Assembly: GCF_034355335.1 (NCBI RefSeq)
Contig: NZ_CP136422.1
Coordinates: 4,126,501 to 4,190,500 of the forward strand
Source: Blautia coccoides
Lineage (GTDB): Bacteria; Bacillota; Clostridia; Lachnospirales; Lachnospiraceae
Length of the DNA stretch: 64,000 nt
Direction of reading: 5' to 3'
The position numbers and the translations under genes are program-made. The notes under the pieces are model-generated. The model searched no databases, was not told where the DNA came from, and worked only from the letters and a program-made list of their open reading frames with translations. How positions within the stretch are numbered: position 1 is the first letter of the stretch; every line of letters begins with the position of its first letter. Shown one piece after another: positions 2,569 to 18,462 of this stretch.

Positions 2569-4428
2569 CTACTCCTTCTTTTCCGGCACAAGGCCGCTCT
2601 CCGTAAGAAATCTGGACACTTCCAGCTCCTTATCGTGCCTGCTCTTTGCATAAAGTATGTAAAGCTCTTTCCTTGCCCTTGTCATACCCACATAGAAAAG
2701 CCGCCGCTCCTCCTCTATGCTGCTGTCTGAAACTGCTTTATGATAGGGAATCGTCCCTTCATTTACATCCATGAGAAACACCCTGTCAAATTCCAGTCCT
2801 TTGATGCTGTGCAGCGTGGAAACTGTGACGCCTTTTTTCTCAATATCCTGCTTCTTTGCCTGCTCCTTCAGCTTTTCCGTGTAATCTGAAATATGCGCAA
2901 ACCATTCTCCAAAGTTCTTATATCCTTTGGCACTCTCTGCCAGCTCCTCCAAGACTTCATACAGGTCATCCACTTTGATCTTCCGGTAAGAGGCATAATC
3001 CTTCAGATATTCCTCATACCCAATCCCATACCGGATATAATTGATTGCCCCGTAGGGTGTCATGCGCTTCAGCGTTGTCAGGTCTTCCTCCAGCTTGTCG
3101 ATCCTGTCACACATCCAGTCCTTCCCCTCGTAAAACCAGCGAAGGCCTTCAAAGGACACAGTGGCATCATCTAGCGCTTCTCTGGATATATAGCGGTTCG
3201 GCCGGTTCATGACCTGCAGAAACTCCCGGCGGCTTCTGTCGCCCTGGGCCAGCTTTATATAGGAAATAACGTTTCTGGAGATCCAGTGTTCATACAGGTT
3301 TGGCAGGGCATCCCGCATCTGAAAGGGGATCTGATACTCCATAAGCGTCTCCACAAGAAATCTGGCGCCCAGATTTGTGCGGTAGAGAATGGCAGTCTCC
3401 TCATAGGGACATCCCTCCTGCAGCGCCTTTTTGATACACTCTTTTACAAAAAGCTCCTCTTCCTTGCCGTCTTCAAACTCGCGTATAACAACCGGTTTTC
3501 CCTCCTCATTATCCGTAAAAAACTCTTTCGGATAACGGTTCTTATTCTTCCCTATCACTTTTTTTGAGGCCTCTACGATGGCCTTTGTGGAACGGTAATT
3601 ACATGCCAAAAGCTCTGTCCCCGCATTGGGAAAATCCTTTGGAAAATGCAGCATGATCTCCGGCCTTGCCCCCCGGAACGCGTAAATGGACTGGTCATCA
3701 TCCCCTACGATAAAGAGGTTATTCTGCGGCGCTGCCAGAAGCTTCACAATGTCATACTGAAGCTGATTGATGTCCTGGAATTCATCTACAAGTACATACC
3801 GAAACTTGCTCTGCCATCCGGCCAGGATGTCCTTTCTGTTTGTGAGAAGGTCATAACAATACAGCAGCATATCATCAAAATCCAGAAGTCTGGACTGTCT
3901 GCAGGCTTCCACATAAGAGTGGTAGATCTTTCTGAAGGTATCATCCGGACAATTGGCAGAATAATAATGCTCTATAGGCATTCTGCCGTTCTTCACTATG
4001 GAGATTTCCTGTACCAGACCTTCAAAAAATTCCTTTTCATCATCGATCCGCATTCTCTGGCGGTATACGATCTCCTTTAGAATATCGTATTTTTTCTCCT
4101 CCCCCAGAATATTCTTTGCGGACAGCCGATAGGCATGGCGCAGGATTCCGTAAAAGATCCCGTGAAAAGTGCCAAACGTCACTTCCCTGTACGGTCCTGT
4201 CATTCCTTCCTTTTCACACAGGCGTAAAAAACGCTCCTTCATCTCCCTGGCAGCCGCTTTTGTAAACGTCACCACCAGTATGGATGAAGGAGTCACCTGA
4301 TATTCCTTTATTAAGTTAGCCACCCTCCTGGTGATGGTGGTGGTCTTCCCTGAACCAGGGCCTGCAAGAAGCATCATAGGGCCCTGGTCATGGGAAACTG
4401 CCCGTTCCTGTGAGGAATTTTTCTGCAT
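2569..4428 (-). CDS. UvrD/Rep-family superfamily 1 ATP-dependent DNA helicase
   Basis: 619 residues, shorter than PcrA/UvrD (about 720). The N-terminal half has Walker A (GPGSGKTTT, about 23-31), motif Ia VVTFTKAAAREMKER, the DEFQD Walker B box and GDDDQSIYAFRGA. The C-terminal half has STLHSIKGLEFDRVFL and EERRLFYVGMTRARKEL. All seven SF1A motifs are recognisable, so it should be an active 3'-5' helicase. The C-terminal tail that binds RNA polymerase in PcrA is missing or short. The stop is 5 bp before the PPTase start, and gltX ends 26 bp upstream. It is not clearly pcrA itself. Confidence 0.92.
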   Translation of the reverse strand: MQKNSSQERAVSHDQGPMMLLAGPGSGKTTTITRRVANLIKEYQVTPSSILVVTFTKAAAREMKERFLRLCEKEGMTGPYREVTFGTFHGIFYGILRHAYRLSAKNILGEEKKYDILKEIVYRQRMRIDDEKEFFEGLVQEISIVKNGRMPIEHYYSANCPDDTFRKIYHSYVEACRQSRLLDFDDMLLYCYDLLTNRKDILAGWQSKFRYVLVDEFQDINQLQYDIVKLLAAPQNNLFIVGDDDQSIYAFRGARPEIMLHFPKDFPNAGTELLACNYRSTKAIVEASKKVIGKNKNRYPKEFFTDNEEGKPVVIREFEDGKEEELFVKECIKKALQEGCPYEETAILYRTNLGARFLVETLMEYQIPFQMRDALPNLYEHWISRNVISYIKLAQGDRSRREFLQVMNRPNRYISREALDDATVSFEGLRWFYEGKDWMCDRIDKLEEDLTTLKRMTPYGAINYIRYGIGYEEYLKDYASYRKIKVDDLYEVLEELAESAKGYKNFGEWFAHISDYTEKLKEQAKKQDIEKKGVTVSTLHSIKGLEFDRVFLMDVNEGTIPYHKAVSDSSIEEERRLFYVGMTRARKELYILYAKSRHDKELEVSRFLTESGLVPEKKE

Positions 4429-13054: not shown

Positions 13055-13543
13055 TTATTCCCGGTTCACCGTCCGGTAAGTCTCCTCCACGATCCTCTCC
13101 ATTGCATTCAGAATATTCTCGTACCCCGTACAGCGGCACAGATGCCCGGAGATCAGCTTTTTCAGCTCTTCCCTGCTGTATCTCTTTCCTGTTCCCACGA
13201 TTTCCACAGCGCTCATGATCAGGCCCGGTGTGCAGAAACCGCACTGGACTGCTGCCTCCTCCACAAAGGCCTTCTGGATTGGAGAAAGTTCTCCGTTTTT
13301 GCCCTTTAATCCCTCCACGGTCATGATATGTTTTCCCTCTGCCCACATGGTCAGATAAATACACGAATCGATGGCTTCTCCGTCCACCAAAACGGTGCAG
13401 GCACCGCATTCCCCAACCTCACAGCCGCGTTTCACACTGGTAAGACCCAGGCGGTTTCTCAGGGTATCCAAAAGGGCCTCCCTGTCATCCACTGCCAGTT
13501 CTGTCTCTTTGCCATTGACTGTCATGGTTATGATCTTAAGCAT
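13055..13543 (-). CDS. Xanthine dehydrogenase, [2Fe-2S] iron-sulfur subunit
   Basis: 162 residues, the small subunit of a three-gene molybdenum hydroxylase. It passes electrons from the molybdenum site to FAD. Two cluster sites are complete: a plant-ferredoxin type with CEVGECGACTVLVDGEAIDSC (4 Cys) and the C-terminal QCGFCTPG plus HLCRCTGY (4 Cys). ATG 13543 has GGGAGG 9 nt upstream; the longer GTG start at 13552 abuts that site and is less likely. The start overlaps the end of the FAD subunit by 8 bp, so the subunits are probably made together. Confidence 0.92.
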   Translation of the reverse strand: MLKIITMTVNGKETELAVDDREALLDTLRNRLGLTSVKRGCEVGECGACTVLVDGEAIDSCIYLTMWAEGKHIMTVEGLKGKNGELSPIQKAFVEEAAVQCGFCTPGLIMSAVEIVGTGKRYSREELKKLISGHLCRCTGYENILNAMERIVEETYRTVNRE

Positions 13544-14429
13544 CCGACTCACCTCCCTCTGCTTTTTTTATGGCTTCCTCTGTGGTCCGCACGGACAGCT
13601 CACGTACAAGCTGAAGACGGAATTCCCGGGATGCGCGCCAGCTTGAGCGCGGCGTTACTTCAGAGGCTGCCCCTTCACGAATTCTTTCATACAATCCAGG
13701 GTCTGTTATGTCCATGCCTGCTGCCGTTTTTTCCGTCTGATAGCAGCGTATAGGAGTAGGCGCAGCTACGCCGAATCCCAGCCGGAGTTCCTCAATCTTT
13801 CTCTTATCCCGGCTCAGCTTTACATGTACCGCGCAGCCAAGAGTGGCGATCTCCATTGCATTTCTTTTTCCGTATTTTGTATAATGCCCGTAAAATCCTT
13901 CATAATTGTCCCTGGTGATCTTTATGGCGGTAAGGATTTCCGCGTGTTTCCTGCAGGTCCGGCCCGGGCCTGTGTAAAACTCTGTTATGGGCACTTCCCG
14001 AATGCCCTCTTTTCCTGTCAACTCCAGCACCGCGTTCAAAGTAAACAGTGCAGCCGCGCTGTCCGCGCTTGTCACACCATTACAGACATTTCCTCCGATG
14101 GTTCCTATATTCCGTATCTGGGGGCCTCCTACCTGGTCCACTGCCCACCCAAGCGCCGGAATGTGCCTTTGGATCACAGGGTCATAGGTTATGTGGGAAA
14201 ACGTCGTGGCAGGCCCTATCACAATGGTGCCGTCCGATTCCATCCTGACACCTGTAAGCGAAGGAATCCCATGTATACTCACTAGAGAACAGCCCGCAAG
14301 TTTTCCCTCTCTTATTTTGATCAGCACATCACTTCCGCCTGAGATCACAACAGCGTCCTTATCTGCCTCCAGCGCTCTCACAGCATCCTGTACATCACTG
14401 GCCTGATAATATTTCTCAATATCATACAT
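13536..14429 (-). CDS. Xanthine dehydrogenase, FAD-binding subunit
   Basis: 297 residues, CoxM/XdhB type. The FAD-contacting segments are visible: VVISGGSDVLIKIREG and the QIRNIGTIGGNVCNGVTSADSAAAL region, with the C-terminal CO-dehydrogenase flavoprotein domain after about residue 170. The start at 14429 (MYDIEKYYQ) overlaps the upstream stop by 8 bp and has a G-rich site upstream; the ORF can be read back to 14456, but that lies inside the molybdenum subunit gene. The middle position between molybdenum and Fe-S subunits matches known XDH operons. Confidence 0.91.
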   Translation of the reverse strand: MYDIEKYYQASDVQDAVRALEADKDAVVISGGSDVLIKIREGKLAGCSLVSIHGIPSLTGVRMESDGTIVIGPATTFSHITYDPVIQRHIPALGWAVDQVGGPQIRNIGTIGGNVCNGVTSADSAAALFTLNAVLELTGKEGIREVPITEFYTGPGRTCRKHAEILTAIKITRDNYEGFYGHYTKYGKRNAMEIATLGCAVHVKLSRDKRKIEELRLGFGVAAPTPIRCYQTEKTAAGMDITDPGLYERIREGAASEVTPRSSWRASREFRLQLVRELSVRTTEEAIKKAEGGESDA

Positions 14430-16824
14430 GTGATCCGCCCCCTTCCAAATCCTCATTTTTTCTTCCGATCAATCCCTCTTTTATAAAGCGCTCCACAAGC
14501 TTCTGAGGTGACAGAGGCAGGGAATCAAAAGCGACCCCGGTGGCGTTGAGCACAGCGTTTCTGATAGCCGGGGCCACAGGAATGGCCGGCGGCTCACCGA
14601 GGGCTTTGTTTCCGAAAGGACCAGTAGGATCCTCAAGTTCCACAAAATCCGTATGCAGATTAGGTGTATCCATAGCTGTGGGTATCTTATAGTCCAGAAG
14701 GTTGGCATTCAGCGGCCTTCCTGTCTTCTCATCCACCAGCAGCTCCTCACTCAGAGCATAGCCGATCCCCATACTCATTCCCCCGTGTACCTGCGCTCTG
14801 GCAAGGGCCGGATTCATCAGTTTCCCGCTGTCGTGTACATTGATGATATCCAGTATCCTGATCTTACCAACCGGTATATCCACCTCAACCTCCACAAAAC
14901 AAACACCTGAGGCAAAGGAATTTTCCTTGCAGTGGCTGGTAGTCTCAGCCGTGATATGCACCGATTTCTCCAAACTGTACAGTGCCTCCTCCGCGAGGGC
15001 CGCAAGTGAGAGCCAAACCTCCCCGGAGGCTTTGTCTATTATCTGGTTTTCTTTGATATCCAGTCTCTTCCATGCAGAAGTCTGCCCACATGCTTCCAGA
15101 GCTTCAGGATCTGCCGCTTTGTTTGATGTTATCTCTTCCTCTGACAGCTTCAGCTTAAATGCCGCATATTCCAGAATTTTCTGTTTGAACAGTTCCCCTG
15201 TCTTCTTGACGGCTTTTCCGCTCACATAGGTCTGCCGGGACGCGTAGGCTCCTGTATCAAAAGGTGTGGTATCCGTATCCTGTACGGTCTCAATATGTAC
15301 CCGGTCCTCAGTTATGCCGGTTATCTCTGCCGCCATCTGGGTAAACACCGTGTCAGCTCCCTGACCTATCTCTGTTGCCCCCATAAAGAGCTGCATGGAG
15401 CCGTCCTGGTTCAATACCATTCGGCAGGATGAGGTCTCTAGGGAAATGGGGTAAACTCCTGTTTTATAGTTGAATATGGCCATGCCGACGCCCCTTCTCA
15501 CAGGCCCGGACTGGTTCTCATATGCCTTTCTCTTTTCCTCCCAGCGGATGTGTTCCCTGCCCTTTTCTATACAGGCCTTCAGCCCATAGGAATGGAAAGC
15601 GATGCCCAGATGAGGGTCTTTATAACCCTCCTTCACACAATTTTTCAGCCGGAATTCCAGAGTATCCATGCCCACAGCGCAGGCCAGATCATCCGTCACA
15701 CACTCTGTCACAAAATCTCCCTGGGGGATTCCGTATCCCCGCATGGCTCCGCCTGTCATGAGATTGGTGTAAACCGTGTAGCTGTCAGATTCCAGAACCT
15801 TCTCATCCTGATAAAGCTGCTTGAAAATATTGGCTGCATTGGCGGCAATGGCGTGAGCATGGGAGGCGTAAGCGCCCTGGTTAGAGTATGCCTCATACTT
15901 TCTCGCCACCAGTGTGCCGTCTTTTCTGACTGCCCCCTTGATCTTCCAGGTAAACGCATGGCGTACGCGGGTACAGCCAAGAGTCTCTTCTCTGGACAGC
16001 TCCAGTCTGACACCGCGGCCGCCTGCCTGGGTACATAAAAATGCGTTCAAAGGCTCATACAGCACATCCTGCTTGTTTCCGAAGCCTCCTCCTATATATG
16101 GCTTGATAACCCTGATCTGCCCAATGGGAATCCCAAGAGCCTGACTGACCACCCGCCTCACAATATGAGGGATCTGGGTGGATGTCACAATGACAATCCT
16201 CCCCTTCTCCATATAAGCATAGGAGACAGGCACCTCAATATGGCAGTGCTGAACCGGCTGTGTCCTGTATTCCTTCTCAATGACAGTCAGCCCTTCTTCT
16301 TTTACAGCCTCCTCAAAACTTCCCTCTCCCAGCACAAAGCCGGTATGCGCGATCACATTTCCCGGTTTTTCCTCGTGCAGAAGAGGCGCATCTTCTTTCA
16401 TGGATTCCTGAGGATCCAGGATCACCGGGTACTCTTCATACTCCACTTTGATCTTATCCGCAGCCCGCTTGGCGGCAATATCATCCTCCGCGATCACAGC
16501 TGCGATATCATCCCCGTACATGCGGACCCGCCGGTTCAAAAGCTTTCTGTCCTTAATATCCTGATGTGCCTTTTCCACTGACCAGGGGTGCCCCGGCGTA
16601 GGAAACTGGATATCCGGCACATCGAAGCAGGTGACGATCTTCACCACTCCCGGAACCTTTAAGGCTTCCTCCAAATCAAAGCTTTTCACCCATCCGTTCG
16701 CAATGGTGCTGTGCACCACTTTTGCTGTATACAAATTCTGCGGCATTAAATCCGCTGTGTACTTCGCCTGTCCTGTGACCTTTTCCCAGGCGTCCACACG
16801 ATTTATTGAACTGCCAACTCCCAT
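14422..16824 (-). CDS. Xanthine dehydrogenase, molybdenum-binding subunit
   Basis: 800 residues, the catalytic subunit that hydroxylates xanthine at the molybdenum cofactor. GGGFGNKQD (245-253), GGAMRGYGIPQGD, EIGQGADTVF and the final ALGEPPAIPVAPAIRNA with catalytic Glu744 are all present, so the active site is intact. It lies 87 bp after guanine deaminase, in the same direction, and precedes the FAD and Fe-S subunits. Substrate is inferred: the linked guanine deaminase makes xanthine, so xanthine dehydrogenase is favoured over the related aldehyde or nicotinate hydroxylases. Confidence 0.93.
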   Translation of the reverse strand: MGVGSSINRVDAWEKVTGQAKYTADLMPQNLYTAKVVHSTIANGWVKSFDLEEALKVPGVVKIVTCFDVPDIQFPTPGHPWSVEKAHQDIKDRKLLNRRVRMYGDDIAAVIAEDDIAAKRAADKIKVEYEEYPVILDPQESMKEDAPLLHEEKPGNVIAHTGFVLGEGSFEEAVKEEGLTVIEKEYRTQPVQHCHIEVPVSYAYMEKGRIVIVTSTQIPHIVRRVVSQALGIPIGQIRVIKPYIGGGFGNKQDVLYEPLNAFLCTQAGGRGVRLELSREETLGCTRVRHAFTWKIKGAVRKDGTLVARKYEAYSNQGAYASHAHAIAANAANIFKQLYQDEKVLESDSYTVYTNLMTGGAMRGYGIPQGDFVTECVTDDLACAVGMDTLEFRLKNCVKEGYKDPHLGIAFHSYGLKACIEKGREHIRWEEKRKAYENQSGPVRRGVGMAIFNYKTGVYPISLETSSCRMVLNQDGSMQLFMGATEIGQGADTVFTQMAAEITGITEDRVHIETVQDTDTTPFDTGAYASRQTYVSGKAVKKTGELFKQKILEYAAFKLKLSEEEITSNKAADPEALEACGQTSAWKRLDIKENQIIDKASGEVWLSLAALAEEALYSLEKSVHITAETTSHCKENSFASGVCFVEVEVDIPVGKIRILDIINVHDSGKLMNPALARAQVHGGMSMGIGYALSEELLVDEKTGRPLNANLLDYKIPTAMDTPNLHTDFVELEDPTGPFGNKALGEPPAIPVAPAIRNAVLNATGVAFDSLPLSPQKLVERFIKEGLIGRKNEDLEGGGSHV

Positions 16825-16911: not shown

Positions 16912-18204
16912 TTAGAAAATCCTTCTCCCTGCCACATATTTTCCGGTCATATCCCTGTCATCTGAAAGATATACCACACGTTCCAGACGTTCCTTCAGGG
17001 TCAGCTCCCTGGGTGTCTTCAATCTTGTGTCATCTACAACTACCGCGTCAAATTCATATCCTTTTTCAAAGCTTCCCACCTGTCCGAAGAAAGCTCCCCC
17101 GCCCTTGGTTCCCATATAAAACACTTCATCCACTGTGAGCGGTTTTTGCGTTTCATCTTCCAGACGCCAGCGGAGCTTAGAGGCCTGCACTGCCCCCACC
17201 ATCACCTGAAACAGGGAGAGCACATGACCGCCGGCAATATCGCTTCCCAGACCCACATGGATCCCCTCTTCCAGATACCTACGAATCGGTGCCACACCGG
17301 AAGACAAGTCCGTATTGGAATGAGGACAATGTGCCGCGAAGACTCCGTTTTTCTTCATCAGGCCTATCTCCTCCTCTGTGGGATGTACACAGTGTGCCAT
17401 GACTGCCGGATAAGTTCCCCCGAACATACCAAACTGCTCATAGGCATCCCCGTAAAAGGCTGACCAGGGGCAAAGCTCCTTCACCCATGCGATCTCCCCT
17501 TTATTTTCAGAGAGATGTGACTGAATGGGAAGGTCATATTCCCTGCGTATCCCGCTCAGCATTTCCATAAGACGATCTGAACAGCTTGGGATAAACCGGG
17601 GTGTGAGGATCGGCCTGATATTTTTATACCTTCCGCCCACTTCCTTAAGCCACAGAAGGGTATCTTCTGCAGAGCGTTCTGCGCTTTCCTCACAGAGATA
17701 GTCCGGTGCGTTCCGATCCATATTTACTTTTCCCACCATTGCTTTCAGACCTGTCTCCTCCAGCATATCCATCAAAAGAACGGTTGCCGGCACATGACGC
17801 GTGGCGAAGATACACGCCCTGGTCGTTGCGCTTTTTTTCAGATCCTCTGTAAAAATATGGTATGCCTTCCCGGCATATTCCATATCCCCATACTTCCCTT
17901 CCTCGGGAAAGGTCCTGGTCTCCAGCCACTCCAGAAGTTCCATATCCATGCCCAGGCCTGTAAACGCATACTGGGGCGCATGCAGATGCAGATCCACCAG
18001 ACCGGGCAGGATCAGAGCGTCTTTGTAGTCTGTCAGAGGATAATCTTTAAATTCCTCTGGCAGTTTTTCAAACACCCCCTGGCAGATTCCGTCTCTGCAT
18101 ACCAGATAGGCATTCGGAACGGTTCTGAGCGTCTCTGCGGTCTCACTATAGCAGATATTTCCCTTCAATATAAAGGTACCTGCCCTGTTTTCTTCTTTTC
18201 TCAT
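16912..18204 (-). CDS. guaD: Guanine deaminase (amidohydrolase superfamily)
   Basis: 430 residues. It converts guanine to xanthine and ammonia. The amidohydrolase metal site is seen as PGLVDLHLHAPQYAFTG (the HAPQ form is characteristic of guanine deaminase), with TPRFIPSCSDRLM, QSHLSENKGE, MAHCVHPT and LGSDIAGG supplying the remaining His and Asp ligands. AGGAGG 6 nt upstream fixes ATG 18204; the longer TTG start at 18222 has no ribosome site. It is the first gene of the purine operon, preceded by a sigma-A promoter and a guanine-type riboswitch. Confidence 0.92.
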   Translation of the reverse strand: MRKEENRAGTFILKGNICYSETAETLRTVPNAYLVCRDGICQGVFEKLPEEFKDYPLTDYKDALILPGLVDLHLHAPQYAFTGLGMDMELLEWLETRTFPEEGKYGDMEYAGKAYHIFTEDLKKSATTRACIFATRHVPATVLLMDMLEETGLKAMVGKVNMDRNAPDYLCEESAERSAEDTLLWLKEVGGRYKNIRPILTPRFIPSCSDRLMEMLSGIRREYDLPIQSHLSENKGEIAWVKELCPWSAFYGDAYEQFGMFGGTYPAVMAHCVHPTEEEIGLMKKNGVFAAHCPHSNTDLSSGVAPIRRYLEEGIHVGLGSDIAGGHVLSLFQVMVGAVQASKLRWRLEDETQKPLTVDEVFYMGTKGGGAFFGQVGSFEKGYEFDAVVVDDTRLKTPRELTLKERLERVVYLSDDRDMTGKYVAGRRIF

Positions 18205-18279
18205 GTTCTTCCTCCTATGCAAGGAGCGATCGGCTGAATCCGGCGCCTGTTATCTTCTATACAGAATTATTTTAAAAAT

Positions 18280-18356
18280 AAAAAACCAGCCACCGAAACC
18301 AGACTGCAAAGCCCCCAATTATCAGGGGACTTATAGTCAGCTATTTCGGTAGCTGG
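18280..18356 (-). terminator. Riboswitch-controlled terminator before guaD
   Basis: The 3' arm TTTCGGTGGCTGG (18298-18286) followed by six T can pair with CCAGCTACCGAAA (18356-18344), with one G-U pair over 13 bp. The 5' arm is the P3 stem and loop of the purine aptamer. Aptamer folding and terminator folding are therefore mutually exclusive. A small CCCC/GGGG hairpin lies in between. Confidence 0.78.
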
Positions 18357-18395
18357 TAGAAACGTTCAACCCGCATTATGAACATATATAAGTCC
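18327..18395 (-). ncRNA. Purine riboswitch aptamer, guanine type
   Basis: Read on the minus strand: a 9-bp P1 (GGACTTATA with TATAAGTCC), a P2 arm (GTTCA/TGAAC), the invariant core GTTTCTACC, a 6-bp P3 (CAGCTA/TAGCTG) with loop CCGAAA, and GACTATA closing the junction. The specificity position (C74 in xpt numbering) is C, predicting guanine or hypoxanthine rather than adenine. The P3 loop is one nucleotide shorter than usual, and the P2 loop is longer than the usual seven, so tertiary contacts may differ. Confidence 0.85.
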
Positions 18396-18433
18396 TGTTT
18401 TTCACCGTATTACTACAGCGAATTACTATCATT

Positions 18434-18462
18434 AGTATAGTATACACAGATTGAAAAGTCAA
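18434..18462 (-). promoter_or_regulatory. Sigma-A promoter of the guaD-xdh operon
   Basis: TTGACT (18462-18457), a 17-bp spacer and TATACT (18439-18434) on the minus strand. Transcription would start about 30 nt before the riboswitch aptamer. Confidence 0.82.

Follow-up and report, generated by a model that had tools for sequence, protein, structure and literature searches.

Does guanine switch its own breakdown on or off at a locus where a guanine-type riboswitch stands before a gene for guanine deaminase? Guanine riboswitches commonly lower the expression of biosynthesis, salvage or uptake genes (PMC9295807), and in general some riboswitches activate degradation pathways (PMC2258182). A preliminary description of the window (the whole 64,000-nucleotide stretch of Blautia coccoides DNA analysed here) had proposed that the riboswitch at this locus is wired as an ON switch. 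Anatomy and comparison with relatives lead us to consider it very likely that a guanine-type purine riboswitch acts here as a transcriptional ON switch for the guanine-degradation operon guaD-xdhA-xdhB-xdhC. Coordinates are those of the window, and all features described in it lie on the minus strand.

The operon and its upstream signals

The operon reads guaD, then xdhA, xdhB and xdhC. The ribosome-binding site AGGAGGA (18210..18216) precedes guaD (16912..18204), whose 430-aa product matches the guanine deaminase family TIGR02967 with 342.6 bits, under the curated cut-off of 375.4 bits, as well as PDB 2i9u with 437.2 bits and human guanine deaminase (PDB 2uz9) with 249.2 bits. An 8-oxoguanine deaminase was considered as the downstream enzyme and rejected, scoring 97.0 bits in NCBIfam (versus 342.6) and 66.6 bits with PDB 7ww2 (versus 437.2). 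The next three genes encode the molybdenum-binding (xdhA, 14422..16824; NF043082, 1208.7 bits, cut-off 780), FAD-binding (xdhB, 13536..14456; NF043083, 430.5 bits, cut-off 310) and iron-sulfur (xdhC, 13055..13552; NF043084, 257.4 bits, cut-off 217) subunits of xanthine dehydrogenase, in agreement with the original annotation of guanine deaminase plus xanthine dehydrogenase; the true start of xdhB may lie later, because the family match begins at residue 10. Upstream of the riboswitch, a consensus scan located the promoter-like sequence TTGACT-17-TATACT at 18434..18462 (10 of 12 matches), which alone counts for little because two such sites were found in the region versus 1.2 expected from shuffles. 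The span 18280-18462 that had drawn attention initially corresponds to the distance from this site to the end of the U-run described below.

A guanine-type aptamer with canonical pocket letters

A cmscan search of the 64-kb window returned a single Rfam match above the gathering cut-off, the purine riboswitch RF00167 at 18411-18314 (18314..18411), covering model positions 1-102 of 102 with 56.9 bits against a cut-off of 37 (E 3.9e-7). The covariance-model match, the fold and the letters together place the aptamer, from P1 to P1, at 18327..18395, with a perfect 9-pair P1 (18395-18387 with 18335-18327), a short P2 (18383-18379 with 18368-18364) and a P3 (18355-18350 with 18343-18338) capped by L3 (18349-18344). 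J2/3 reads GUUUCUACC, without insertion, and P3 is followed directly by A-C and then P1. The specificity base at position 74 (aptamer positions follow what we take to be xpt numbering) is C, at 18336, and the presence of a guanine-type aptamer upstream of guaD is thereby confirmed. The letters of the original guanine class, C at position 74 with U22, U47 and U51, are all found, and alignment to the model shows GG in L2 and CC in L3, the letters of a predicted L2-L3 contact. At positions 21-22, 47, 51, 52, 74 and 75 the window, like most of the relatives sampled below, has the letters usual for the guanine type, and position 73 is A in the window and A, T and C in 19, 8 and 4 guaD leaders of relatives, respectively. 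Among the placed aptamers of genus and family, position 74 is C in 80 of 86, T in 4 and G in 2; the two G and, among the T, those of G065 and G306 are doubtful assignments.

The preliminary description had regarded the loops as unusual and had raised the idea of a variant ligand on that account; comparison supported neither point. In the window, U47 and position 74 lie one base closer together than in xpt, a distance found in 47 of the 84 located genus and family aptamers with C or T at position 74, and 65 of these 84 have a P2/L2 arm shorter than that of xpt. With canonical pocket letters and loops of a length that many family members share, the sequence offers no basis for predicting a variant ligand. 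We infer that the ligand is guanine or hypoxanthine, and hypoxanthine may serve as a second ligand. It seems improbable that the same ON mechanism answers naturally to another purine such as 8-oxoguanine, xanthine or hypoxanthine: an ON riboswitch of this fold reportedly precedes 8-oxoguanine deaminase in Paenibacillaceae, and the operon itself also makes and uses xanthine, but the pocket letters in the window are the common guanine set, and the encoded enzyme is, by the scores given above, much nearer to guanine deaminases than to 8-oxoguanine deaminase. The marks of xanthine-II, U51G and insertions in J2/3 and J3/1 (PMC9295807), are also absent from the window. Guanine thus remains our predicted ligand.

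A terminator whose 5' arm lies in the aptamer

What, then, would the ligand do to transcription? It had been noted that the 3' arm of the hairpin at the U-run is complementary to the aptamer's P3 stem and loop over 13 bp with one G-U pair, and this is exact by letters: CCAGCTACCGAAA (18356-18344) pairs with TTTCGGTGGCTGG (18298-18286). The minimum-energy fold lengthens the core to 15 pairs, two of them G-U, between ACCAGCUACCGAAAU (18357-18343) and GUUUCGGUGGCUGGU (18299-18285). The terminator 5' arm (18343..18357) accordingly takes in the end of J2/3, the P3 5' strand, L3 and the first base of the P3 3' strand, and the 3' arm (18285..18299) runs into the U-run TTTTTT (18280..18285), whose first base is also able to pair with A18357. 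In the same fold, computed from P1 to the U-run, GACU (18338-18335) pairs with AGUC (18305-18302), and an inner hairpin (18309..18332) formed by AAGUCCCC (18332-18325) and GGGGGCUU (18316-18309) takes the P1 3' strand; by analogy with pbuE, this hairpin is the likely entry point for strand exchange. The 5' strands of all terminator helices are wholly or mostly aptamer (the P3 5' strand and L3, J3/1, and the P1 3' strand with two further C), and the aptamer and terminator pairings are mutually exclusive. None of 5000 dinucleotide shuffles of the post-aptamer stretch matched the duplex energy of -25.9 kcal/mol (mean -9.6, best -23.0), and none of the 5000 reached a 15-pair helix (longest 13).

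A conventional OFF switch, in which the ligand would free a terminator downstream of P1 and repress the operon, has precedent on its side, in that guanine riboswitches commonly reduce expression (PMC9295807) and that all four guanine riboswitches of C. difficile (PMC11477304) as well as the nupR riboswitch of B. thuringiensis (PMC9430930) are OFF switches. The energetics of the window argue against it. The segment from J2/3 to the U-run folds at -43.7 kcal/mol, whereas the stretch from the end of P1 onward folds at only -8.2 kcal/mol; when the aptamer is enforced, the only hairpin left before the U-run has 5 pairs and a 10-base loop, a poor terminator; and the 3' arm forms a duplex of -24.5 kcal/mol with the aptamer versus -7.1 kcal/mol with the post-aptamer stretch. 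None of 31 guaD leaders, moreover, was OFF-like in the fold test described below. Because no strong terminator forms without an aptamer strand, OFF wiring was rejected, and we regard it as very unlikely.

We therefore return to the ON mechanism, which would run as follows. RNA polymerase would make the aptamer first. Without ligand, the GGGGGCUU strand would invade P1, strand exchange would continue through J3/1 into P3, and the long hairpin and its six U would form, so that transcription would end ahead of guaD. A bound guanine (or hypoxanthine) would keep P1 and the junction in place, P3 would stay uninvaded, no other strong hairpin would arise before the U-run, and the operon would be transcribed; guanine should turn the operon ON because a ligand that holds P1 and the junction prevents the terminator. 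In stepwise minimum-energy folds P1 disappears once the transcript end is near 18310 and P3 only when it is near 18294, as would be expected for strand exchange entering through P1. The free fold of -48.8 kcal/mol compares with -29.8 kcal/mol for the aptamer-enforced fold, and given so large an advantage of the terminator form, the switch could work only kinetically, as pbuE is reported to do; this kinetic course and the direction in the cell are our inference. The short loops seen here might ease full strand exchange, given that in xpt a stable L2-L3 contact prevents it unless weakened (PMC7707468). Substrate-induced breakdown fits the downstream gene set guaD-xdhABC.

Could the pairing be real and the element nevertheless decayed or unused, either because the terminator always forms or because the aptamer binds without controlling it? 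Such decay would suit both the stability of the terminator, which far exceeds that of any other state, and the absence of purine riboswitches from 17 of 20 genomes in the genus, but pbuE has the same stability property and yet works kinetically (PMC7707468), and in two congeners (G003 and G008) the aptamer, from P1 to P1, is identical to that of the window, while the 3' arm and spacing differ and the pairing is nonetheless retained. We give decay very little credence and continue to favour a working ON switch.

Purine riboswitches and their downstream genes in relatives

The genome to which the window belongs (6.1 Mb) carries two purine riboswitches. At least one purine riboswitch occurs in 3 of the 20 genus genomes searched, one of the three being that of the window, and in 65 of 299 genomes, from 298 genera, of the family Lachnospiraceae. 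We took as relatives all 89 purine riboswitch matches of the genus and family searches, which come from 67 genomes. The next gene downstream is a guaD homologue in 32 (in 32 genomes), a gene for an FAD-dependent protein in 17, an NCS2 permease in 11, a BMP lipoprotein in 7, xdhA in 5, a MATE transporter in 3, Xpt in 3, a PbuX-type gene in 2, a CatA-like gene in 2 and a singleton in 5, the contig end being too near in 2; these group names rest on one to two members each. The FAD-dependent protein is uncharacterised, and its 17 loci (L034, 1628-2995; L036, 37-1443; and 15 more) form one cluster; the two members scanned carry PF21688 and PF07992, with no NCBIfam match at 1e-20.

The methods were applied in the order minimum-energy folds, arm test, fold test. 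The arm test compares the duplex of the arm alone with that of letter-shuffled arms, a pass being 4 or fewer of 200 shuffles. The fold test asks whether the partner of the roughly 14 bases before the U-run is the aptamer (ON-like) or lies only downstream of it (OFF-like), with dinucleotide shuffles for expectation, and covers 86 of the 89 matches, G161, G237 and G106 having been dropped when the script did not place the junction. By fold, guaD leaders were ON-like in 22 of 31 cases (4.9 expected from shuffles) and never OFF-like, with no U-run in range in 5 and an unclear outcome in 4. Leaders of the FAD-dependent protein were ON-like in 15 of 16 (5.5 expected), those of xdhA in 3 of 5 (1.65 expected; no U-run in range in 2), those of NCS2 permeases in 7 of 11 (2.65 expected; 2 OFF-like) and those of MATE transporters in 3 of 3 (0.6 expected). 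The contrast lies with BMP leaders (0 of 7 ON-like, 6 OFF-like, 1 unclear) and Xpt leaders (0 of 2 ON-like, 2 OFF-like), which have separate downstream terminators and together are ON-like in 0 of 9 and OFF-like in 8 of 9. Overall, 59 of 86 leaders were ON-like versus 21.4 expected, and because this chance rate is high, a single leader proves little and it is the contrast between groups that serves as evidence. The fold test also classes the two riboswitches of the window's genome as ON-like.

The arm test was passed by 18 of 28 guaD, 13 of 15 FAD-dependent, 5 of 5 xdhA, 2 of 10 NCS2, 2 of 3 MATE, 0 of 7 BMP and 0 of 2 Xpt leaders, and so disagrees with the fold test in places (for example, 2 of 10 versus 7 of 11 for NCS2, and 5 of 5 versus 3 of 5 for xdhA). 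When aptamers were swapped between leaders, a comparison that ignores kinship and omits matches without a U-run, 80 leaders paired better with their own aptamer (-14.05 versus -10.36, sd 0.29; 0 of 10000 swaps as good), as did 26 guaD leaders, from which the near-identical G003 and G008 were omitted (-13.80 versus -10.58, sd 0.48; 0 of 10000), and 12 of the 17 FAD-dependent leaders (-16.08 versus -11.64, sd 0.76; 0 of 10000), the groups having been chosen by short sequence patterns. The 7 BMP/Xpt leaders gave no own-aptamer signal in this test (9123 of 10000). A second, partly overlapping sample was drawn by scanning named species genomes with a guaD alignment. Of the 80 loci kept, 45 contain an aptamer, which lies 250 bases or less upstream of the guaD match in 41 cases and about 1.6 kb upstream in 4; the 46 aptamers with a U-run again favoured their own arms in the swap test (0 of 10000, kinship ignored), and when arms were letter-shuffled, 21 of the 46 passed at a 2% threshold. 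For the order's other families, from which 40 matches were taken without gene calls, 7 of 35 passed the 2% threshold and the swap test gave 0 of 10000 (kinship ignored); aptamer-borne terminators in these families extend the architecture beyond Lachnospiraceae.

The predicted ON wiring of the window, as originally proposed, is thus upheld by one strong terminator with its 5' arm in the aptamer, by the fit of arms to their own aptamers and by the contrast with BMP and Xpt leaders; resting on anatomy and on the comparison across leaders, this reading is well supported. Counting against it are the 9 of 31 guaD leaders of genus and family that are not ON-like by fold, the GuaD score under the curated family cut-off and the scarcity of purine riboswitches in the genus (absent from 17 of 20 genomes).

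Several single loci deserve mention. The second purine riboswitch of the window's genome (L096, gene 2837-4228 on the minus strand) precedes an NCS2-type permease (PF00860) and has C at position 73; its leader is ON-like by fold with only 7 pairs, and its arm test, at 10 of 200, was not significant. Two congeners (L090 and L091) have adenine-type T74 aptamers with strong aptamer-borne terminator arms before CatA-like acetyltransferases, and at L017 (1-1470) the gene behind a C74 aptamer encodes a homologue of adenine deaminase (TIGR01178, 465.2 bits, cut-off 472.5), the ON arm there not being significant. Tandem aptamers stand before guaD at L127 (5688-5753 and 5852-5917) and L169 (5716-5783 and 5873-5939), one of the two loci belonging to Pseudoflavonifractor gallinarum, of the Oscillospiraceae; guanine riboswitch doublets are already known (PMC9481103). 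At five loci from other families of the order (L195, L197, L199, L200 and L206), additional bases separate P3 from P1 (GTTACAGGCTAC is one example), much as the J3/1 insertions do in guanine-II and xanthine-II (PMC9295807).

Predicted masking of the guaD start codon

Many guaD leaders without an aptamer-borne terminator share a start region such as CCGAUGAAUGAACCUAU, which is complementary to J1/2, P2 and L2 of the aptamer (AUAGGUUCAUAAUCGG). Of 78 leaders examined for start-region pairing, 69 had a recognisable guaD start, and 22 of these, with related N-termini, pair the start region with the aptamer at -12.1 to -24.8 kcal/mol (L115, L119, L120, L134, L128 and L101 are examples). Fifteen of the 22 lie within the best 5% of their own synonymous-codon versions, compared with 0 of the 47 other leaders. 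The 22 were chosen after the list had been seen, by start type and energy, and include a probable duplicate (L106 and G131:C197) and one leader, G166, that also has an ON-like terminator; because they are related to each other, independent masking events are few. Two further leaders, L108 and L143, have energies within this range although they lack that start type, and they did not pass the codon control. The sequence complementarity suggests that the pairing would mask the guaD start codon unless ligand holds P2, which would amount to translational ON control. Among the 9 guaD leaders that the fold test did not class as ON-like, start pairing covers 5 (G056, G103, G122, G131 and G232) and leaves 4 unexplained, although G069, one of these 4, passes the arm test. 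The leader in the window shows no such masking: its energy of -7.1 kcal/mol is reached by 500 of 500 synonymous versions.

One aptamer, two predicted directions

Taking these leaders together, we think it reasonably probable, though less so than the ON wiring of the window itself, that in Lachnospiraceae a canonical guanine aptamer has been re-wired as the activator of a guanine-use regulon (guaD, xdhA, NCS2 permease and FAD-dependent protein) through at least two ON platforms, namely the aptamer-borne terminator and, in a Mediterraneibacter/Dorea-type subgroup, P2 masking of the guaD start codon. The BMP and Xpt leaders, for uptake and salvage, would keep OFF wiring, so that the direction of the switch would follow gene function under one ligand. 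If this is true, the same pocket would report the substrate and induce its catabolism across many genera of one family; the leaders would form a natural series for how one aptamer couples to opposite outputs, and to transcription or translation, and would offer natural guanine-ON modules; and the FAD-dependent protein would become a likely target of induction by guanine. The degradation of purines by gut bacteria is also relevant to urate in the host.

Comparison with known systems

In aptamer fold and pocket letters the element resembles original-class guanine riboswitches (xpt, C. difficile guaA/xpt and nupR), but the reported examples of that class turn off synthesis, salvage, uptake or a regulator (PMC11477304, PMC9430930, PMC9295807). 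The earlier generalisation that guanine riboswitches are mostly OFF switches stands in that sense, yet it needs qualifying, for the ON direction is predicted for three relatives of the guanine aptamer, namely guanine-II, xanthine-II and a 2'-deoxyguanosine variant (PMC9295807). Guanine-II would share with the window the guanine ligand and the predicted ON direction, but it has insertions in J2/3 and J3/1, which the window's junctions lack, and precedes phosphoribosyltransferases (PMC9295807). Control of purine-oxidation genes would be shared with both xanthine classes: xanthine-II, predicted to be ON, can precede xanthine dehydrogenase, as here, but differs by U51G, where the window has U, and by its junction insertions (PMC9295807), and xanthine-I differs in having another fold and in being an OFF switch, likely acting on translation (PMC7373994). 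The excerpts of PMC9495176 and PMC11566853 describe no guanine ON switch before guaD or xdh, the riboswitch passages on a purine-fermenting Clostridium concern glycine (PMC3519856), and a search of the open-licence literature yielded no account of a guanine riboswitch with guanine deaminase and xanthine dehydrogenase, of one in Lachnospiraceae, or of a riboswitch with xanthine dehydrogenase in Blautia.

The likeness to the ON layout of B. subtilis pbuE that had been drawn at the outset is apt. In the pbuE switch (adenine, transcriptional ON) the terminator, once strands have been exchanged through P1, consumes both P1 and P3 and represents the most stable state, and control is kinetic (PMC7707468); the window would share the P1- and P3-consuming terminator, the entry through P1, the small entry hairpin and the U-run (PMC7707468). 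Its anatomy is of the pbuE type, with a terminator 5' arm drawn from the P3 and P1 strands of the aptamer, a U-run, and no strong terminator when the aptamer holds. Unlike pbuE, which is adenine-type and precedes a different gene, the window has C at the specificity position and a catabolic operon downstream. The pbuE aptamer has U at position 74. The 8-oxoguanine riboswitch, reportedly an ON switch of this fold with a variant pocket before 8-oxoguanine deaminase in Paenibacillaceae, would share with the window a downstream deaminase of the same superfamily, but differs in pocket, enzyme and host family. Set against these systems, it is well supported that the window holds an ordinary aptamer in unusual wiring and an unusual gene context, and not a new riboswitch class.
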